Shown here: positions 1 to 6,352 of the stretch, piece after piece
Position numbering within the stretch: position 1 is the first letter of the stretch
Layout of the letters: the number at the start of each line of letters is the position of its first letter
Position numbers and translations under genes: made by a program
Notes under the pieces: generated by a model
The model's database searches: none
Seen by the model: only the letters and a program-made list of their open reading frames with translations
Told to the model about the DNA's origin: nothing
Source of the DNA: Candidatus Poribacteria bacterium
GTDB lineage: Bacteria > Poribacteria > DTPJ01 > WJIO01
Reading direction: 5' to 3'
NCBI GenBank assembly: GCA_014730235.1
Contig: WJIO01000044.1
Location: forward strand, 1-6,836
Length of the DNA stretch: 6,836 bases

Positions 1-204
1 ACAACATAACCACCATCCCTGGTTTGCTGGATGGATGTAGCATCAGTATAATCATTATAACTACCTCCATAGGTCTTTTGCCATATCAAGTTACCATTGC
101 TATTAAGCTTTAGTACCCAGATATCAAGAAAACCTTCGCCGAAAGAGTCAGTATGTCCAGCCACAACATAACCACCATCCCTGGTTTGCTGGATGGATGT
201 AGCA
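1..204. repeat. Exact 42-bp direct repeat within the repeat-protein gene
   Basis: Bases 1-42 and 163-204 are identical, offset by 162 bp (54 codons). They encode the T-S-I-Q-Q-T-R-D-G-G-Y-V-V part of two adjacent protein units. A third, diverged unit begins its equivalent stretch near 307-316, offset by 156 bp. Identity at synonymous positions suggests recent duplication or gene conversion. The left copy may continue beyond the window edge. Confidence 0.9.
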
Positions 205-473
205 GAATCTCTATTGATACCTCCGTAGGTCTTTTGCCACATCACATCACCGATGCTGTCAAGCTTTAGCACCCATAAATCAAGATCCCCTACTCCAAAA
301 GACTGGGTATGTCCAGCTACTACATAACCATTGTCGCTAGTTTGATAGACGGAAGAAGCTTCATCCCAACTATTCCCCACATAAGTTATACTCCAGGCCA
401 CCTCAGCATGACAAAAACCTGACAAAGCAAACAGCAGACTGAAAATAAATAAGATCAATATTATCCTTTTCAT
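1..473 (-). CDS. Exported repeat protein, 5' part only (runs off left edge)
   Basis: The reading frame opens with ATG at 473 and stays open to base 1 (157 full codons), so the C-terminus lies outside the window. Residues 1-23 form a signal peptide: MKR, a hydrophobic stretch, then CHA just before E24. The residue before Cys21 is Phe, so this is not a lipobox and type I cleavage is more likely. From about residue 40 the protein is tandem units of about 52-54 residues, each carrying GGYVVAGHT, SFG, a D-x-WVLKL strand and WQKTYGG. Two units are complete and a third is cut by the edge. Such units are common in secreted or surface proteins of uncultured bacteria and archaea and probably fold as beta-propeller blades; the true function is unknown. 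A GGGGG Shine-Dalgarno at 482-486, 8 bases upstream, supports the start. A terminator separates the gene from the permease operon, so it is probably its own transcription unit. Confidence 0.85.
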   Translation of the reverse strand, partial: MKRIILILFIFSLLFALSGFCHAEVAWSITYVGNSWDEASSVYQTSDNGYVVAGHTQSFGVGDLDLWVLKLDSIGDVMWQKTYGGINRDSATSIQQTRDGGYVVAGHTDSFGEGFLDIWVLKLNSNGNLIWQKTYGGSYNDYTDATSIQQTRDGGYV

Positions 474-481
474 GACTTTTA

Positions 482-486
482 CCCCC
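482..486 (-). promoter_or_regulatory. Shine-Dalgarno of the exported repeat protein
   Basis: On the minus strand GGGGG lies 8 bases before the ATG at 473. It fixes the start codon of a reading frame whose other end is outside the window. No strong promoter was found in 474-632. The best match, ATGACT-17-TATACT ending at 495, would give a leader of only about 15 bases. Confidence 0.6.
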
Positions 487-632
487 AATTGAAAAGTATA
501 AGAAATAATAAGATTCCAGTCATTGCTACATAAATATTCAGTTGTCAATGATTTGTTTACCGCTTTACTATTAGCCGACGTAAATATTATAAAACACTTT
601 TATGAAAAGTCAACAAAAAACATCAACCAAAA

Positions 633-669
633 TAAAAAAAAGCCGTCAGATATATATGCTTGATGGCTT
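633..669 (-). terminator. Rho-independent terminator of the permease operon
   Basis: Read on the minus strand, AAGCCATCA (669-661) and TGACGGCTT (648-640) form a 9-bp stem with one A-C mismatch and a 12-base loop. A run of eight T (641-634) follows. It lies 48 bases beyond the stop codon of the last permease and before the next gene, where an operon end is expected. On the plus strand the mismatch becomes a G-U pair, but the flanking T tract is missing, so termination is expected mainly on the minus strand. Confidence 0.75.
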
Positions 670-717: not shown

Positions 718-1986
718 CTATTCATGCCTTAAAGCGTCGGCAGGCGGCAGCTTGGATGCCTTGTTAGCCGGATATAGACCAAAGAATATTCCTGTCGCCA
801 TTGCGACGGAAAATGCAATTAAACCGGCTTTCCATGATATTGACGTGGGCCAGGATATATCCTCAAACATCCCCTGGGATATTTTGCTAATCAGGGATGA
901 ATGTAATATTCTGGTTATGCCTATGGCCATGCCTTTACCGATTCCCGCGCCGATTAATATACCAACTACGCCGCCTATAACACCTATTAATGCAGCTTCG
1001 GCAAGGAACTGCAATAGAATATCCAGCCTTCTGGCCCCTACGGCTTTTCGCAGGCCGATCTCCCTTGTGCGCTCTGTTACCGATACCAGCATGATGTTCA
1101 TAATACCTACAGCTCCCACGATCAGGGCTATGCTGGCAACAGCTATTAAAGCTGTTGTTATTACGGCAGCGGTTTGTTTTGTTTCCTCTACGCTTCTGGT
1201 AGGAGTCCAGAATTCAAACATCCAGTCGTTGCCGTGATGGGTATGACGAAGCACGCGCCGGATTTCTGCTCCGGCTTGATCCACTACCTCGAAGCTGTAG
1301 GCCTGGGCTCTTATCATGTCTATGTGCCTTTTGCCGGTGAACCTCTTTTGGACTGTGGTTATGGGTAAGAATACACGCCTGTCCCATCCCCGGGTGTTGA
1401 TCCGTTCTCCCTTTTCTTCCATCACACCTATAACCCTCAGCCTGTGATTTCCAAGTGTGATCTCTTTACCCGAAATATCGCCTTTGCCGAAAAGCTGATC
1501 CCATACCTTGTAGCCTATTACGCATACCTTGGTGCTGTTGCTCATATCATCCCTGGATATGAACCTGCCGATTTTTATGTTCCAGTCATAGGCCTCCGGG
1601 TAGGCTGGTGAGACTCCTGCTACTTCTGATATGGTATATTTATCCCCGGTCCGGGCGAAGACTGAAAACCTCTCGGTTTCAGGTGAAACGCTCTTTACAT
1701 TGGGGCAGTAACGTATGATGGCGTCCAGATCATCCATTGTAAGCATGGTGGCTTTGGCATCCCAAGTTTCTTTCTCTACCCAGTCGCCCAGTCTGACCTT
1801 TACCACATCCAGCTCCCCGGCCCTTTGCATCTCTCCCAGGGCAAATTCCCGCAGGCCATTGCCGACGGATAAAATGCCGATAATCATGGAAATCCCCACA
1901 CTGGTTCCCAGTACTGTGAGTGCTGTGCGGAGCTTGTTTTTCTTTAATGTAGAAATGCTGATTCCGAAACCTAAGAATAATTTCAT
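718..1986 (-). CDS. MacB-type ABC transporter permease, second of two
   Basis: A 422-residue inner-membrane permease of the MacB/FtsX family without an ATPase domain. Residues 21-44 are TM1. A large periplasmic MacB_PCD-like domain covers about 45-270. TM2 (about 272-297) runs into the FtsX signature around 291-320, with GIMNIMLVSVTERTREIGLR followed by KAVGAR. TM3 is about 325-355 and TM4 about 385-404, ending in the typical FGLYPANKAS and DALRHE. In this family such subunits do not form a substrate pore; they pass ATP-driven movement to the periplasmic part (mechanotransmission). Full-length E. coli MacB carries its ATPase in the same chain; here it must come from a separate protein. The ATG has no Shine-Dalgarno. 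It lies 88 bases after the first permease, and a short open frame ends 2 bases before it. It is the last gene of the operon. The general family is certain; the substrate is unknown. Confidence 0.95.
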   Translation of the reverse strand: MKLFLGFGISISTLKKNKLRTALTVLGTSVGISMIIGILSVGNGLREFALGEMQRAGELDVVKVRLGDWVEKETWDAKATMLTMDDLDAIIRYCPNVKSVSPETERFSVFARTGDKYTISEVAGVSPAYPEAYDWNIKIGRFISRDDMSNSTKVCVIGYKVWDQLFGKGDISGKEITLGNHRLRVIGVMEEKGERINTRGWDRRVFLPITTVQKRFTGKRHIDMIRAQAYSFEVVDQAGAEIRRVLRHTHHGNDWMFEFWTPTRSVEETKQTAAVITTALIAVASIALIVGAVGIMNIMLVSVTERTREIGLRKAVGARRLDILLQFLAEAALIGVIGGVVGILIGAGIGKGMAIGITRILHSSLISKISQGMFEDISWPTSISWKAGLIAFSVAMATGIFFGLYPANKASKLPPADALRHE

Positions 1987-1988
1987 TT

Positions 1989-2060
1989 TTATATTGGGAC
2001 GAGGAATAGCACGCTGATGACGCGGATTATAAGGATTAGCGCGGAAAACTTTTCATTCAT
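1989..2060 (-). CDS. Possible 23-residue hydrophobic peptide between the permeases
   Basis: The frame starts with ATG at 2060, begins MNEKFSALILII and ends VLFLVPI before TAA at 1991-1989. It starts 14 bases after the stop of the first permease and ends 2 bases before the ATG of the second, so it fills the gap almost exactly. Residues 6-23 are hydrophobic enough to span a membrane. Neither it nor the next gene has a clear Shine-Dalgarno, so ribosomes could pass by termination and re-initiation from one gene to the next. It could be a leader peptide that couples translation or a small membrane subunit. At this length it could also be chance; hydrophobic short frames are common in AT-rich DNA. 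Confidence 0.28.
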   Translation of the reverse strand: MNEKFSALILIIRVISVLFLVPI

Positions 2061-2074
2061 GTGCTGTTATCTAT

Positions 2075-3316
2075 TTAACTTTGCCGAAGGGCATCGACAG
2101 GTGTCAGACTTGAGGCCTTATGAGCGGGATATAAACCAAATGCTATGCCCACACAAATACATGCAATAACGGCAAATGTAACACTGTATATGGATAATAT
2201 GGGATTCCAGGGAACGGGAGGGTTAGCGTACCTATTCATAAACCATGATATGGCCCGGGTAAAGCCAAATCCAACACCTATGCCTCCGGCAGCTCCTACC
2301 AGACAAAGGATTACCGACTCCACCAGAAACTGAAGCTTTATGTCGCTGTTTCGCGCTCCTATGGCCTTTCGCAGGCCGATCTCATATATCCTTTCGTTTA
2401 CTGATGCCAGCATGATATTCATAATGCCTATGCCGCCTACCAGAAGGGCTGTAGTTGCCAATCCCCCTATAACAACCTGTATTACCAGGATCATCTTGTC
2501 CATATATTTCAATATGTCTTTCAAAGACCAAGTTCTGAAAAAATCCTGACCACCATGTCGGTTCATGAGTATGGATGCCGCTTCACCACGAGCCAGGTCT
2601 ACAGTATCCATGCTGGTGGTTTTAACCCAGAAATGTTCTATCATGTCGTTACCTGTGATGCGTTCCTGGGCTGTGGTAATTGGCACTATCACCTTTTTGT
2701 CCATATCTTCGTCTTTTTCTTCCAGCACACCGGCTACCACATATCTTTTTTCATCCAGTCTTATCTCACTGCCCACCGGATTAATATCATGACCGAACAG
2801 AAACCGGGCTACTCTAAGGCCCAGGAAACATACTTTTATCTGGTTATCCGTATCACTGTAATACATGGAACGACCTAACTGGGAAAACCATTTCATTCCC
2901 GGCGAAAAGGACGGCGATGTTCCCATTATATCCAGATGCCGCCCTGTATAACCCCTGGAGACGCGGATGTTATGCTCTATCTGAGGTACTACATAAGTTA
3001 TATATTTGCATTGGTTTTCCAGGGCTACAGCATCGTCATAAGTCAGGTATTCGCTGCTGCGGTTGGGCACTATTTTCCCATCCTCAAAAAAGAAAGGTGC
3101 GCGGAAAATACCGAACATATTTGTTCCCCCTACCAGGTTATCCAACTGCCCTACCAATATGCCTTTCACGCTTTCACCGATAGAAACCATACCCACAATG
3201 CCGCCCACACCGATGATTATACCAAGCATGGTCAGAAATGATCGCATTTTGCTGGCCAGTATAACAGCCAGACCGGATTTTGCGCTTTCAATGAGTTTTA
3301 TATGTAGCCGAAGCAT
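2075..3316 (-). CDS. MacB-type ABC transporter permease, first of two
   Basis: A 413-residue inner-membrane permease with the same plan as the downstream one. TM1 is about 27-50 after the basic ASKMRSFLTMLG segment. The periplasmic MacB_PCD-like domain runs about 51-270, TM2 about 275-300. The FtsX signature follows at 294-322 (GGIGIMNIMLASVNERIYEI, GLRKAIGAR). TM3 is about 328-355 and TM4 about 377-396, with FGLYPAHKASS and VDALRQS at the end. There is no Walker A or ABC signature, so it depends on a separate ATPase. The ATG directly follows the stop codon of the fusion-protein gene (TAA-ATG, no gap), which implies translational coupling; a weak GGGAAG lies 5 bases upstream. The two permeases differ clearly outside the conserved C-terminal motifs, which points to a heterodimer rather than a recent duplicate. 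Substrate unknown. Confidence 0.95.
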   Translation of the reverse strand: MLRLHIKLIESAKSGLAVILASKMRSFLTMLGIIIGVGGIVGMVSIGESVKGILVGQLDNLVGGTNMFGIFRAPFFFEDGKIVPNRSSEYLTYDDAVALENQCKYITYVVPQIEHNIRVSRGYTGRHLDIMGTSPSFSPGMKWFSQLGRSMYYSDTDNQIKVCFLGLRVARFLFGHDINPVGSEIRLDEKRYVVAGVLEEKDEDMDKKVIVPITTAQERITGNDMIEHFWVKTTSMDTVDLARGEAASILMNRHGGQDFFRTWSLKDILKYMDKMILVIQVVIGGLATTALLVGGIGIMNIMLASVNERIYEIGLRKAIGARNSDIKLQFLVESVILCLVGAAGGIGVGFGFTRAISWFMNRYANPPVPWNPILSIYSVTFAVIACICVGIAFGLYPAHKASSLTPVDALRQS

Positions 3317-5272
3317 TTAATCTTCCCACATGAACAGGTCTTTTCTGCTCAGTTCCGGTACTTTTATCCTGTCATCCTCAGAAAGGCCTCTTATTATTTC
3401 AATATTATTTTCGTTTCGCTTACCTATAACAATGGGAACTTCCTGTGTCTCGATTTCCTGGGATTGCTGGGATGATGAATTTCCATCACCGACTATAAGG
3501 AGGGCAAAAGGCTCTCTTTCTTTCCGTACTTCGCATTTTACAGCATCCAGCCTGTCGGATTGTGAAAATATCAAGTCCATAGGTCTGGGTGGCCCCCAAT
3601 CGAATTCACCGGGGTTGTTTTTCACCCTTATGCGCACCTCAAAAAGCTCCTGATCATCTATATATCGTTTATCGTATTCCTCCGGGGTTTTAACGACTTC
3701 TGACGGGAAAAGTTTTTCGTTGTTTGGCAATTTTATATTTAAATTTTTACCGCCTTTGAATCTGTATACATCATCTTCCTTTATCCATGTATAGACCAGA
3801 GTTACATCCTTTTCAATAAGGGCTGATATGGGCATTTGCAGAATATCCTTACGTTCTCCCACTATTATATCCACATCAGCGGTCATCTGGGGACGGAGTT
3901 CCTTTGTTACGTTGGTGATCAAGATCGTGACCTCAAAGGAGCGTATATTATCCTTTAATTTTGCCGCTGGTGCGACTTTCCATACTTTGCCGTCAAAAAC
4001 TCTGTCTCTGTATGCGCTTACATGTATTTCAGCCCTTTGACCCAAATTAATTTTAGCTATTTCGATTTCATTTACATAAGTCTTAACCACCATCTGGGAC
4101 AGGTCTGATATTTTCATAATAGGTTCTCCGCCGCCCCATTCGGAGCGACCGGAGGCCACAGCCTGTCCTTCTTCTATTATACAATCTGTAATAGTTCCGC
4201 TTCGGGGTGCATGTTTTAACGTCCAGCTTAACTCCTCTTTCAGCCTGTTGAGTTCGGCTTCTGACCTTTCTTTATATTTTTCCGCCGACATTACCCTCAG
4301 TTCCACATCTTTTTTCTGATTTTCCTCAGCCGCCAACAGGTTTTCAAGTTCCTTTTTTTGTTGAGCTACCCTGAGTTTAGCTTCTTTTCTCTGGGCTTCT
4401 GCTGACACTTTTAGCTTATCCAGGCTTTCCTTCTGGTCTTCTATATCAGCCTTTAACTGGTGGACTTCCTGTTTTGCGGCATCAAGATTAAGCTGTGCGG
4501 ATTTTTCGCTTCCCTGGGCGCTTTCATAAGCTGCTTGAGCTTCATTGAGCTTATTTTGCGCTTCCTCATACTGGGCTTCGGATACAAATTTCTGTTCAAA
4601 CAGCTTTTTGTATCGTTCTTCCTCAGATTTGGCCAGCTCCAGGGCTGATTGTTTCGTTTGCAGAACAAGGTGGGTTTCCTGTAAGGCCAATTCGGCTTGG
4701 GATACAGCGGTTTTATATTTTTCCAGCGAGTCTTTTTCCAGCTTTCTCAGGGAGTTTTCGGCCTGGATAATTTGCTGATCGCTCATGGCTGAGACCGATT
4801 CCATATTAGCCTGAGCCAGTTCAAGATTCTTTCGGGCCATATCTATGTTATTTTCTATCCTTTTGATTTCCAGAGCTTTATTTATTTTGGCCTGTTCCAA
4901 CTGTCCATTTGTTACATCGTAATCGGCTTGGACTGCTCTGAGCCTTTGTCTTATGTATTCATCATCAATCTTAAATAATTCCTGGCCCGCTTGCACATTA
5001 TCTCCGTCTTCCACGTATAATTTTTTTATGACCCCGGCCACATCAGATTTGATTTCCACCTCTTCCAAAGCTTCCAGATCTCCCCTCTCGCTGATCCTCT
5101 CGACAAACATGGCCCTCTGCACCGTCTCTATTTGTATATGTTTACTCTCCTCCTCCTCTCTGGCAAATATTTTATCCAATATCCAGCGTCCTGAAAAAAT
5201 GAGAACTGCTATAATAGCTAAAGGGATCAGATATTTAAGGGATCTTCTCACATATACAGCTGCTTTATTCAT
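3317..5272 (-). CDS. Long HlyD/MacA-type periplasmic adaptor (membrane-fusion protein)
   Basis: A 651-residue adaptor linking the permeases to an outer-membrane channel. Residues 13-32 form an N-terminal membrane anchor. The first lipoyl half is about 72-103 (SDVAGVIKKLYVEDGDNVQ). A predicted alpha-helical hairpin rich in Glu, Lys, Gln and Ala spans about 108-350. Its tip carries R220-x3-L224-x6-S231, the same spacing as the TolC-docking motif of AcrA-type adaptors (R128, L132, S139). The second lipoyl half is about 352-392 and the beta-barrel about 393-487. A membrane-proximal strand set ends the protein (VPIVIGKRN, IEIIRGLSEDDRI, about 612-637), but roughly 110 residues with no counterpart I recognise sit before it. 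MacA-like proteins are usually below 450 residues; the extra length comes from the hairpin and this insert. A GAGGAA Shine-Dalgarno supports the start. The gene begins 24 bases after the lipoprotein gene and abuts the next permease. Confidence 0.93.
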   Translation of the reverse strand: MNKAAVYVRRSLKYLIPLAIIAVLIFSGRWILDKIFAREEEESKHIQIETVQRAMFVERISERGDLEALEEVEIKSDVAGVIKKLYVEDGDNVQAGQELFKIDDEYIRQRLRAVQADYDVTNGQLEQAKINKALEIKRIENNIDMARKNLELAQANMESVSAMSDQQIIQAENSLRKLEKDSLEKYKTAVSQAELALQETHLVLQTKQSALELAKSEEERYKKLFEQKFVSEAQYEEAQNKLNEAQAAYESAQGSEKSAQLNLDAAKQEVHQLKADIEDQKESLDKLKVSAEAQRKEAKLRVAQQKKELENLLAAEENQKKDVELRVMSAEKYKERSEAELNRLKEELSWTLKHAPRSGTITDCIIEEGQAVASGRSEWGGGEPIMKISDLSQMVVKTYVNEIEIAKINLGQRAEIHVSAYRDRVFDGKVWKVAPAAKLKDNIRSFEVTILITNVTKELRPQMTADVDIIVGERKDILQMPISALIEKDVTLVYTWIKEDDVYRFKGGKNLNIKLPNNEKLFPSEVVKTPEEYDKRYIDDQELFEVRIRVKNNPGEFDWGPPRPMDLIFSQSDRLDAVKCEVRKEREPFALLIVGDGNSSSQQSQEIETQEVPIVIGKRNENNIEIIRGLSEDDRIKVPELSRKDLFMWED

Positions 5273-5296: not shown

Positions 5297-6301
5297 CTAT
5301 GGCGCATCTATTATCTCCAGGCCATACATTTTACCATCAAATGATATATAGGCCATTTTTTTACCATCCGGCGACCATCTGGGTTCCAAACCATCGTGTA
5401 TTTTTTGAGCAGCATCAGTGCCATCAGAATTTCTTACATAGATAACCTGATCCGATACATAAGCTATTCTACTGCTGTCAGCAGACCAGTTTGCATCGTA
5501 AGAATCCGGGTGATCTGAGCTTATATGTATTGCATCGCCGCTACCATCGGAGTTTTTTACCCATATACCCAGGCTTCCAGACCTGGCCGACTCAAAGGCG
5601 ATCTTTTTGCCATCAGGTGACCATACCGGGTCCTGGTCGTTAGCATTATGAAATGTAAACTGAACAGGCTGACTAATAAAATCAGCTTTTATAATCCATA
5701 AATCAAGATTTCCGGTTTTGTTTGACTGATAAGCCAGCATGGTTCCATCCGGCGACCACTCGGGATTCAGATCTTTGGATGTATCACCAACCAACAACAG
5801 GTCTTCCCCGCTGTCACTGGCATTTCTAATCCATATATCATAGCTGGTTTTCCTGAAAGAATGGAAAGCGATAATATCACTGGTTGGCGACCACCGGGGG
5901 TGGGAATCGGCGGCTTTATCCGAGGTTATCTTGTTGGCAACAGTATCGCCGTTTATATCCTTTATCCATATATCATCCCTGATGCCATAAGAGCGGGAAC
6001 TATATGCAATTCTGGTATTATCCGGCGACCATGTTATATCGCTGTAAAAACCTGTGCCGGTTAACTGTTTGAGATCGTCCTCCGGAATGTATTTTATGAC
6101 TATTTTATTATTGAGAATATAAGCCAGCTTTGTGCCGTCATTTGACCAGGACAGATTATTGTGGGTAGCAATATATAATTGCGGATCGATTTCATATTCT
6201 TCATCATCTCCAAAAAAATCCTCGTCACATCCTGATATGAAGGCAAGGGAAGTTACTAAAACTAATATAAGACTTCTCATAATTGAATGAATCCTTTTCA
6301 T
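5297..6301 (-). CDS. TolB-like PD40 beta-propeller lipoprotein
   Basis: From the chosen start the product has 334 residues. MKR, a hydrophobic stretch and the lipobox ISG-C25 form a type II signal peptide, so the protein should be a periplasm-facing lipoprotein. An acidic linker (DEDFFGDDEE) follows. Then come seven PD40 motifs of the form W-S-x-D-x-x-x-I-A-Y/F, with their Trp at residues 52, 91, 137, 182, 227, 272 and 309. The spacing of 37-46 residues fits one beta-propeller blade each. TolB itself has a PD40 propeller but with six blades and a separate N-terminal domain, which is missing here; it is therefore not TolB. The frame is open to an ATG at 6346, but the longer form would put 15 unusual residues before the signal peptide. 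A third ATG at 6280, with AAAAGGA 11 bases upstream, is also possible. As first gene of the operon it may be an accessory or substrate-binding part of the transporter; this is inference. Confidence 0.9.
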   Translation of the reverse strand: MKRIHSIMRSLILVLVTSLAFISGCDEDFFGDDEEYEIDPQLYIATHNNLSWSNDGTKLAYILNNKIVIKYIPEDDLKQLTGTGFYSDITWSPDNTRIAYSSRSYGIRDDIWIKDINGDTVANKITSDKAADSHPRWSPTSDIIAFHSFRKTSYDIWIRNASDSGEDLLLVGDTSKDLNPEWSPDGTMLAYQSNKTGNLDLWIIKADFISQPVQFTFHNANDQDPVWSPDGKKIAFESARSGSLGIWVKNSDGSGDAIHISSDHPDSYDANWSADSSRIAYVSDQVIYVRNSDGTDAAQKIHDGLEPRWSPDGKKMAYISFDGKMYGLEIIDAP

Positions 6302-6323
6302 AATTACAACAATGGATATGTTC

Positions 6324-6352
6324 TTGACATTGTAAAACTGATACATTAAAAT
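6324..6352 (+). promoter_or_regulatory. Sigma-70-like promoter pointing right, away from the operon
   Basis: TTGACA (6324-6329), a 17-base spacer and TAAAAT (6347-6352) match the housekeeping consensus at 11 of 12 positions. Transcription would start near 6359 and run into the repeat region, opposite to every gene found here. No gene follows on this strand within the window. In AT-rich DNA such matches can occur by chance, but consensus -35 and ideal spacing together are uncommon. Confidence 0.45.

Follow-up and report, generated by a model that had tools for sequence, protein, structure and literature searches.

In the usual account of type VII ABC machines such as MacB, LolCDE and FtsEX, each ATPase is dedicated to its own permeases. 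Orphan permeases are represented by ADOP (TIGR03434), an NCBI family of acidobacterial duplicated orphan permeases in which two units are fused into a protein of ~800 aa. In MacB, movement of the ATPase is transmitted by a major coupling helix located between TM2 and TM3 (PMC5985334). In Streptococcus pneumoniae, Spr0693-0694-0695 is reported to be a MacAB-like pump encoded in one operon with a single permease (PMC5768738). Sharing of an ATPase is described for importers: MsmK is reported as the shared ATPase of sugar importers in Streptococcus suis (PMC4519317) and FhuC as that of siderophore/heme importers in Staphylococcus aureus (PMC10147376), in each case one ATPase for several permease sets encoded elsewhere. 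Precedents thus exist separately for orphan permeases (ADOP) and for shared ATPases (MsmK, FhuC). A literature search with little coverage of subscription journals returned no account of ATPase sharing within the MacB family, nor of the Poribacteria arrangement reported here.

The stretch of DNA analyzed here (the window) takes in the whole of contig C408, 6,836 bp long, from a genome of the phylum Poribacteria that totals 5.5 Mb in 451 contigs. All long genes of the contig lie on the minus strand (Table 1). The ATG of permease A directly follows the adaptor stop codon, and the frames of the adaptor and of permeases A and B are all intact. Both permeases gave full-length, above-cut-off matches to MacB_PCD and FtsX and none to ABC_tran, and an ABC_tran scan of the whole genome placed no ABC domain on contig C408. 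This agrees with the preliminary description, which had reported an adaptor and two permeases without an ATPase domain, and no ATPase gene in the window. The gene order that it gave, adaptor, permease, permease, also stood, but the closing terminator became doubtful: the hairpin at ~669-640 folds no better than shuffled sequences (z -0.43) and was not picked up by a terminator scan. The TolB-like propeller gene (6346-5297) had been omitted. Its product has an N-terminus resembling that of a lipoprotein. Only 24 nt separate the end of this gene from the start of the adaptor gene, and it is probably the first gene of the same transcript as the adaptor.

Table 1. Features of contig C408 (6,836 bp).
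Feature	Coordinates	Strand	Evidence
Start of repeat-containing protein, running off contig	3-548	-	weak delta-60 / SBBP-like matches
Possible intrinsic terminator, hairpin then T-run to ~632	640..669	-	seen in sequence
Permease B, MacB-type (FtsX fold), 422 aa	718..1986	-	MacB_PCD + FtsX; no ATPase domain
Coupling helix of permease B, ERTREIGLRKAVGARR	1027..1074	-	
Permease A, MacB-type (FtsX fold), 413 aa	2075..3316	-	MacB_PCD + FtsX; no ATPase domain
Coupling helix of permease A, ERIYEIGLRKAIGARN, presumed ATPase-docking element	2348..2395	-	
Periplasmic adaptor (membrane-fusion protein), 651 aa, long coiled-coil type	3317..5272	-	HlyD_D23/HlyD_3/Biotin_lipoyl; RND_mfp
TolB-like (PD40) beta-propeller protein	5297..6346	-	Pfam PF07676, E 1.4e-40
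Dispersed non-coding repeat, upstream contig end	6400..6836	.	119 matches, many contigs, own genome

The repeat at the upstream end is composed of two or more modules (query positions ~1-174 and ~225-437) and is matched on dozens of contigs. Because these matches fall on many contigs of the same genome, contig C408 can be assigned to it, and the repeat is probably the reason why the contig stops there. A number of copies are found close to further adaptor/permease loci (C32, C261). At the opposite end, repeats within the truncated protein may have caused the downstream break.

The locus resembles MacAB-TolC in its adaptor, its MacB_PCD/FtsX permeases and their coupling helix, and a profile of permease A orthologs matched residues 260-647 of MacB (5nik_J) over the whole length of permease A (E 8.6e-59). 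It differs in having two different permeases, both lacking the N-terminal fused ATPase of MacB (PRK10535 / NF007826), in an adaptor far longer than MacA, and in the absence of an outer-membrane channel gene from the operon; in relatives, such a gene lies beside the putatively shared ATPase described below. With LolCDE the locus has in common two different FtsX-type permeases and a separate ATPase, but it includes an adaptor and no adjoining lolD. As in ADOP, the MacB/FtsX permeases are orphans with no ATPase gene adjoining; here, however, they are single units of 413 and 422 aa, paired and accompanied by an adaptor, and a candidate shared ATPase could be identified. The permeases scored 209 and 212 bits against the MacB equivalog cut-off of 966 bits, 72.7 and 33.5 bits against 362 bits for LolCE (TIGR02212), and 131.7 and 104.5 bits against 622 bits for ADOP. 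These scores, together with the architecture, rule out curated membership in MacB, LolCE or ADOP. The pneumococcal Spr0693-0694-0695 pump (5xu1) likewise combines a separate ATPase, a MacB-type permease and an adaptor, but has one permease rather than two and keeps its ATPase in the operon.

Adaptor, permease A and permease B occur in identical order in three relatives of the same phylum (L048, L049, L050), with identities of 64-66% for permease A, 63-66% for permease B and 49-50% for the adaptor (two genomes; the L050 contig begins within the adaptor gene). The flanking genes vary: upstream, two relatives have a gene of the acetyltransferase family where the window has the propeller gene; the adaptor and the two permeases therefore form the conserved unit. 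The propeller gene does not adjoin the orthologous operons and stands outside this three-gene cassette. Against the window dS was saturated, and dN/dS taken among the relatives was 0.04-0.13, indicating purifying selection. A search of the named genomes with an adaptor profile returned two loci only, both from Poribacteria and both already found. The intact frames and low dN/dS speak against decay of the operon, in line with the preliminary description, which had judged it unbroken. An ATPase gene inside the operon of a relative would have spoken against that description's proposal of a distant or shared ATPase; none adjoins the three orthologous operons, whose contigs reach past the operon on one or both sides. 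Since the window is an entire contig, the absence of an ATPase from it is weak evidence alone and becomes strong with these comparative data.

We next quantified how often permeases of this kind lie near an ATPase gene, using the window's genome, five closed Poribacteria genomes and one further relative (G073). Permeases with a MacB_PCD match of at least 100 bits were classed as strong MacB-type and LolCE-like permeases as weak, and adjacency was defined as a location within 3.5 kb of a LolD/MacB-type ATPase. Adjacent genes were found for 0/50 strong and 19/20 weak permeases in the five closed genomes, and for 3/66 strong versus 30/31 weak permeases in all seven (Fisher p 1.6e-20). All three adjacent strong permeases belong to the window's own genome, on contigs C261 and C269. 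When ABC domains of every type were considered, the one nearest to any strong permease in G035 and in G010 was still more than 5 kb away. In other genomes, a few permeases (L141, L152 and one in L143) have large ABC proteins of ~600 aa nearby, which are not of the LolD/MacB type. As a control, 15 of 22 strong permeases, counted by hand in ten genomes of other phyla, stand beside an ATPase. Separation of permease and ATPase is typical of Poribacteria, but not unique to the phylum.

Several other arrangements came to light in these genomes. Five loci (L142, L148, L153, L159, L138) carry four MacB-type permeases in tandem, three A-like and one B-like, followed by a long adaptor and with no ATPase, and such clusters are conserved across Poribacteria. 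Many relatives encode, some kb away from a LolD-like ATPase, a very large protein (about 1,050-2,500 aa) that matches MacB_PCD weakly (L091 on C304, G035:C1:4226171, G037:C1:2623613, G047:C1:4953798). One genome of another phylum (G089) has 72 MacB_PCD matches, many of them double permeases of ~800 aa, and seven LolD-like ATPases; it is probably ADOP-rich, and a second place to look at the idea of a shared ATPase.

Close kin of these permeases have an ATPase in some genomes and lack one in others. In the window's genome the C261 system has the order channel-adaptor-ATPase-permease, and its relatives in G035, G037, G019 and G047 consist of adaptor and permease only; C261-type permeases form one clade in the tree. 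C269-type permeases are accompanied by an ATPase at L038, L131 and L132, but not at L138, L142, L148, L153, L159 and L168-L170, and at L058 a permease has an ATPase that its kin in other genomes lack. Thus, ATPase genes are gained and lost as the permeases persist.

Across 81 permeases from these loci, the twelve most conserved 15-residue windows all fall in a segment that starts at the end of TM2 and includes the coupling helix, with a core approximating EIGLRKAxGA. Nine LolCE- or FtsX-like permeases located beside ATPases have unlike helices, such as EIGTIGALGM, EIGMMRALGM and EYGVLKAVGT (those of the LolCE-like permeases being taken from a profile alignment). In the C261 permease, which is accompanied by an ATPase of its own, the helix is EIGTRKAVGA, versus EIGLRKAVGA in its ATPase-less kin, a single case and suggestive at most.

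The genome-wide search for candidate ATPases that had been proposed at the outset identified a MacB-type ATPase on contig C269, with the one on C261 as second candidate. The C269 ATPase is MacB/MJ0796-like, its closest solved structure being the pneumococcal 5xu1. An ortholog of 65-80% identity is present in 76 of 83 relatives across the phylum, nearly always in single copy. Seven relatives lack the C269-type ATPase, two of them more than 90% complete, compared to ~7.6 absences expected from genome completeness for a universal gene, and it is on this expectation that its universality rests. The sole relative without a strong permease (G074, 76% complete) also lacks the C269-type ATPase. We read the ATPase neighborhood at thirteen loci. 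Ten of these (G035, G010, G019, G047, G037, G045, G073, G080, G007 and G003) show, in this order, an outer-membrane channel, a long adaptor and the ATPase, but no permease; an OEP match confirmed the channel in G035, and elsewhere it was assigned from position and size. In G057 and G001 permease pairs lie beside the ATPase, and in G016 the contig ends there. The order in G057, adaptor-permease-permease-channel-adaptor-ATPase, may represent the ancestral gene set. In the window's genome, the C269 locus reads adaptor-permease-permease-LamG protein-ATPase. The window adaptor is 31-34% identical to the adaptor found beside the shared ATPase. A GHMP-kinase-family gene (L124, 8283-9302) lies after or near this ATPase in many relatives; similar ORFs with like N-termini occur in L127, L128, L130, L134 and L135, the family being confirmed in L124, and a functional link is possible.

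With regard to the pairing of the permeases, permease B clusters in the tree with second genes of other pairs (SH-aLRT 96), in a B-type clade that includes members from C32, C269, G016, G057, G001 and G073, the last gene of the tandem clusters and some single orphans. Permease A sits on a long branch outside this clade, in a placement without support. A heterodimer would be consistent with an ancient A/B duplication whose copies have stayed paired, and the tandem four-permease clusters and single orphans indicate that other arrangements exist. The B-type clade and the essentially single-copy, phylum-wide ATPase lend support to the earlier suggestion of a fixed heterodimer that relies on a distant or shared ATPase, as far as sequence comparison can indicate.

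Taken together, we consider it probable (roughly 0.7), on comparative sequence grounds, that a split MacAB-TolC-like (type VII ABC) machine takes its membrane and periplasmic components from this operon. A MacB-like heterodimeric core of permeases A and B would be capped by six copies of the long adaptor, and one LolD/MacB-type ATPase per genome, usually from a channel-adaptor-ATPase operon, would act in trans. In the window's genome the C269 ATPase would be the first candidate donor and that of C261 a less likely one. The same ATPase could drive every MacB-type permease that keeps the EIGLRKAxGA helix: ATP-driven closing of the ATPase dimer would be relayed through the coupling helices to the periplasmic domains by mechanotransmission, and a periplasmic substrate would be pushed into a conduit of adaptor and outer-membrane channel, the latter supplied from another operon. 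We give about even odds to the broader proposal that, in Poribacteria, a hub operon of channel, adaptor and ATPase provides both the motor and the exit duct for interchangeable MacB-type permease modules, 6-14 in number and dispersed around the genome, the window pair among them.

The identity of the donor is where this model is most readily challenged. The C269 ATPase adjoins another permease pair, and the window's genome also encodes the C261 ATPase (57% identical to that of C269) and about nine other LolD-like ATPases; such ATPases number nine or more per genome, and several have no MacB_PCD permease within 3.5 kb. Another LolD-like ATPase could therefore be the donor. It is nevertheless improbable that the A/B pair uses one of these (for instance C261 or a LolCE-type one), or several interchangeably, with no single hub: C261-type permease operons elsewhere in the phylum are themselves without an ATPase gene, the LolCE-like permeases examined have their own ATPases and unlike coupling helices, and G073, which has the window's operon plus three further MacB-type permease clusters, encodes only one ATPase of the C269 subtype.

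In principle, the permeases might act independently of ATP, for example as a sensor or passive scaffold, or the operon might be decaying after the loss of its motor, as might be supposed from the lack of an ATPase near any ortholog and from the orphan FtsX-type permeases common in some phyla (ADOP). We regard this as distinctly unlikely, given that no part of the permeases is better conserved than the coupling helix, that selection is purifying and that a suitable ATPase is conserved across the phylum. Least probable of all, with only a slight chance, is an ATPase gene lying just past a contig end. The window does end in a dispersed repeat upstream and in a repeat-containing gene downstream, but ~490 bp without a gene separate the first gene from the contig end, and the more extended ortholog contigs carry no ATPase. 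We favor the split machine powered in trans.

The parallels for ATPase sharing, MsmK and FhuC, serve importers of other ABC types, and Poribacteria match them at the level of genomic arrangement only, with one ATPase and several permease sets without their own. The coupling-helix motif provides a testable docking code. If the model holds, a single motor for many MacB-type permeases would entail competition and common regulation among pumps, and it would point to a specific source of power for orphan MacB/FtsX permeases such as ADOP.
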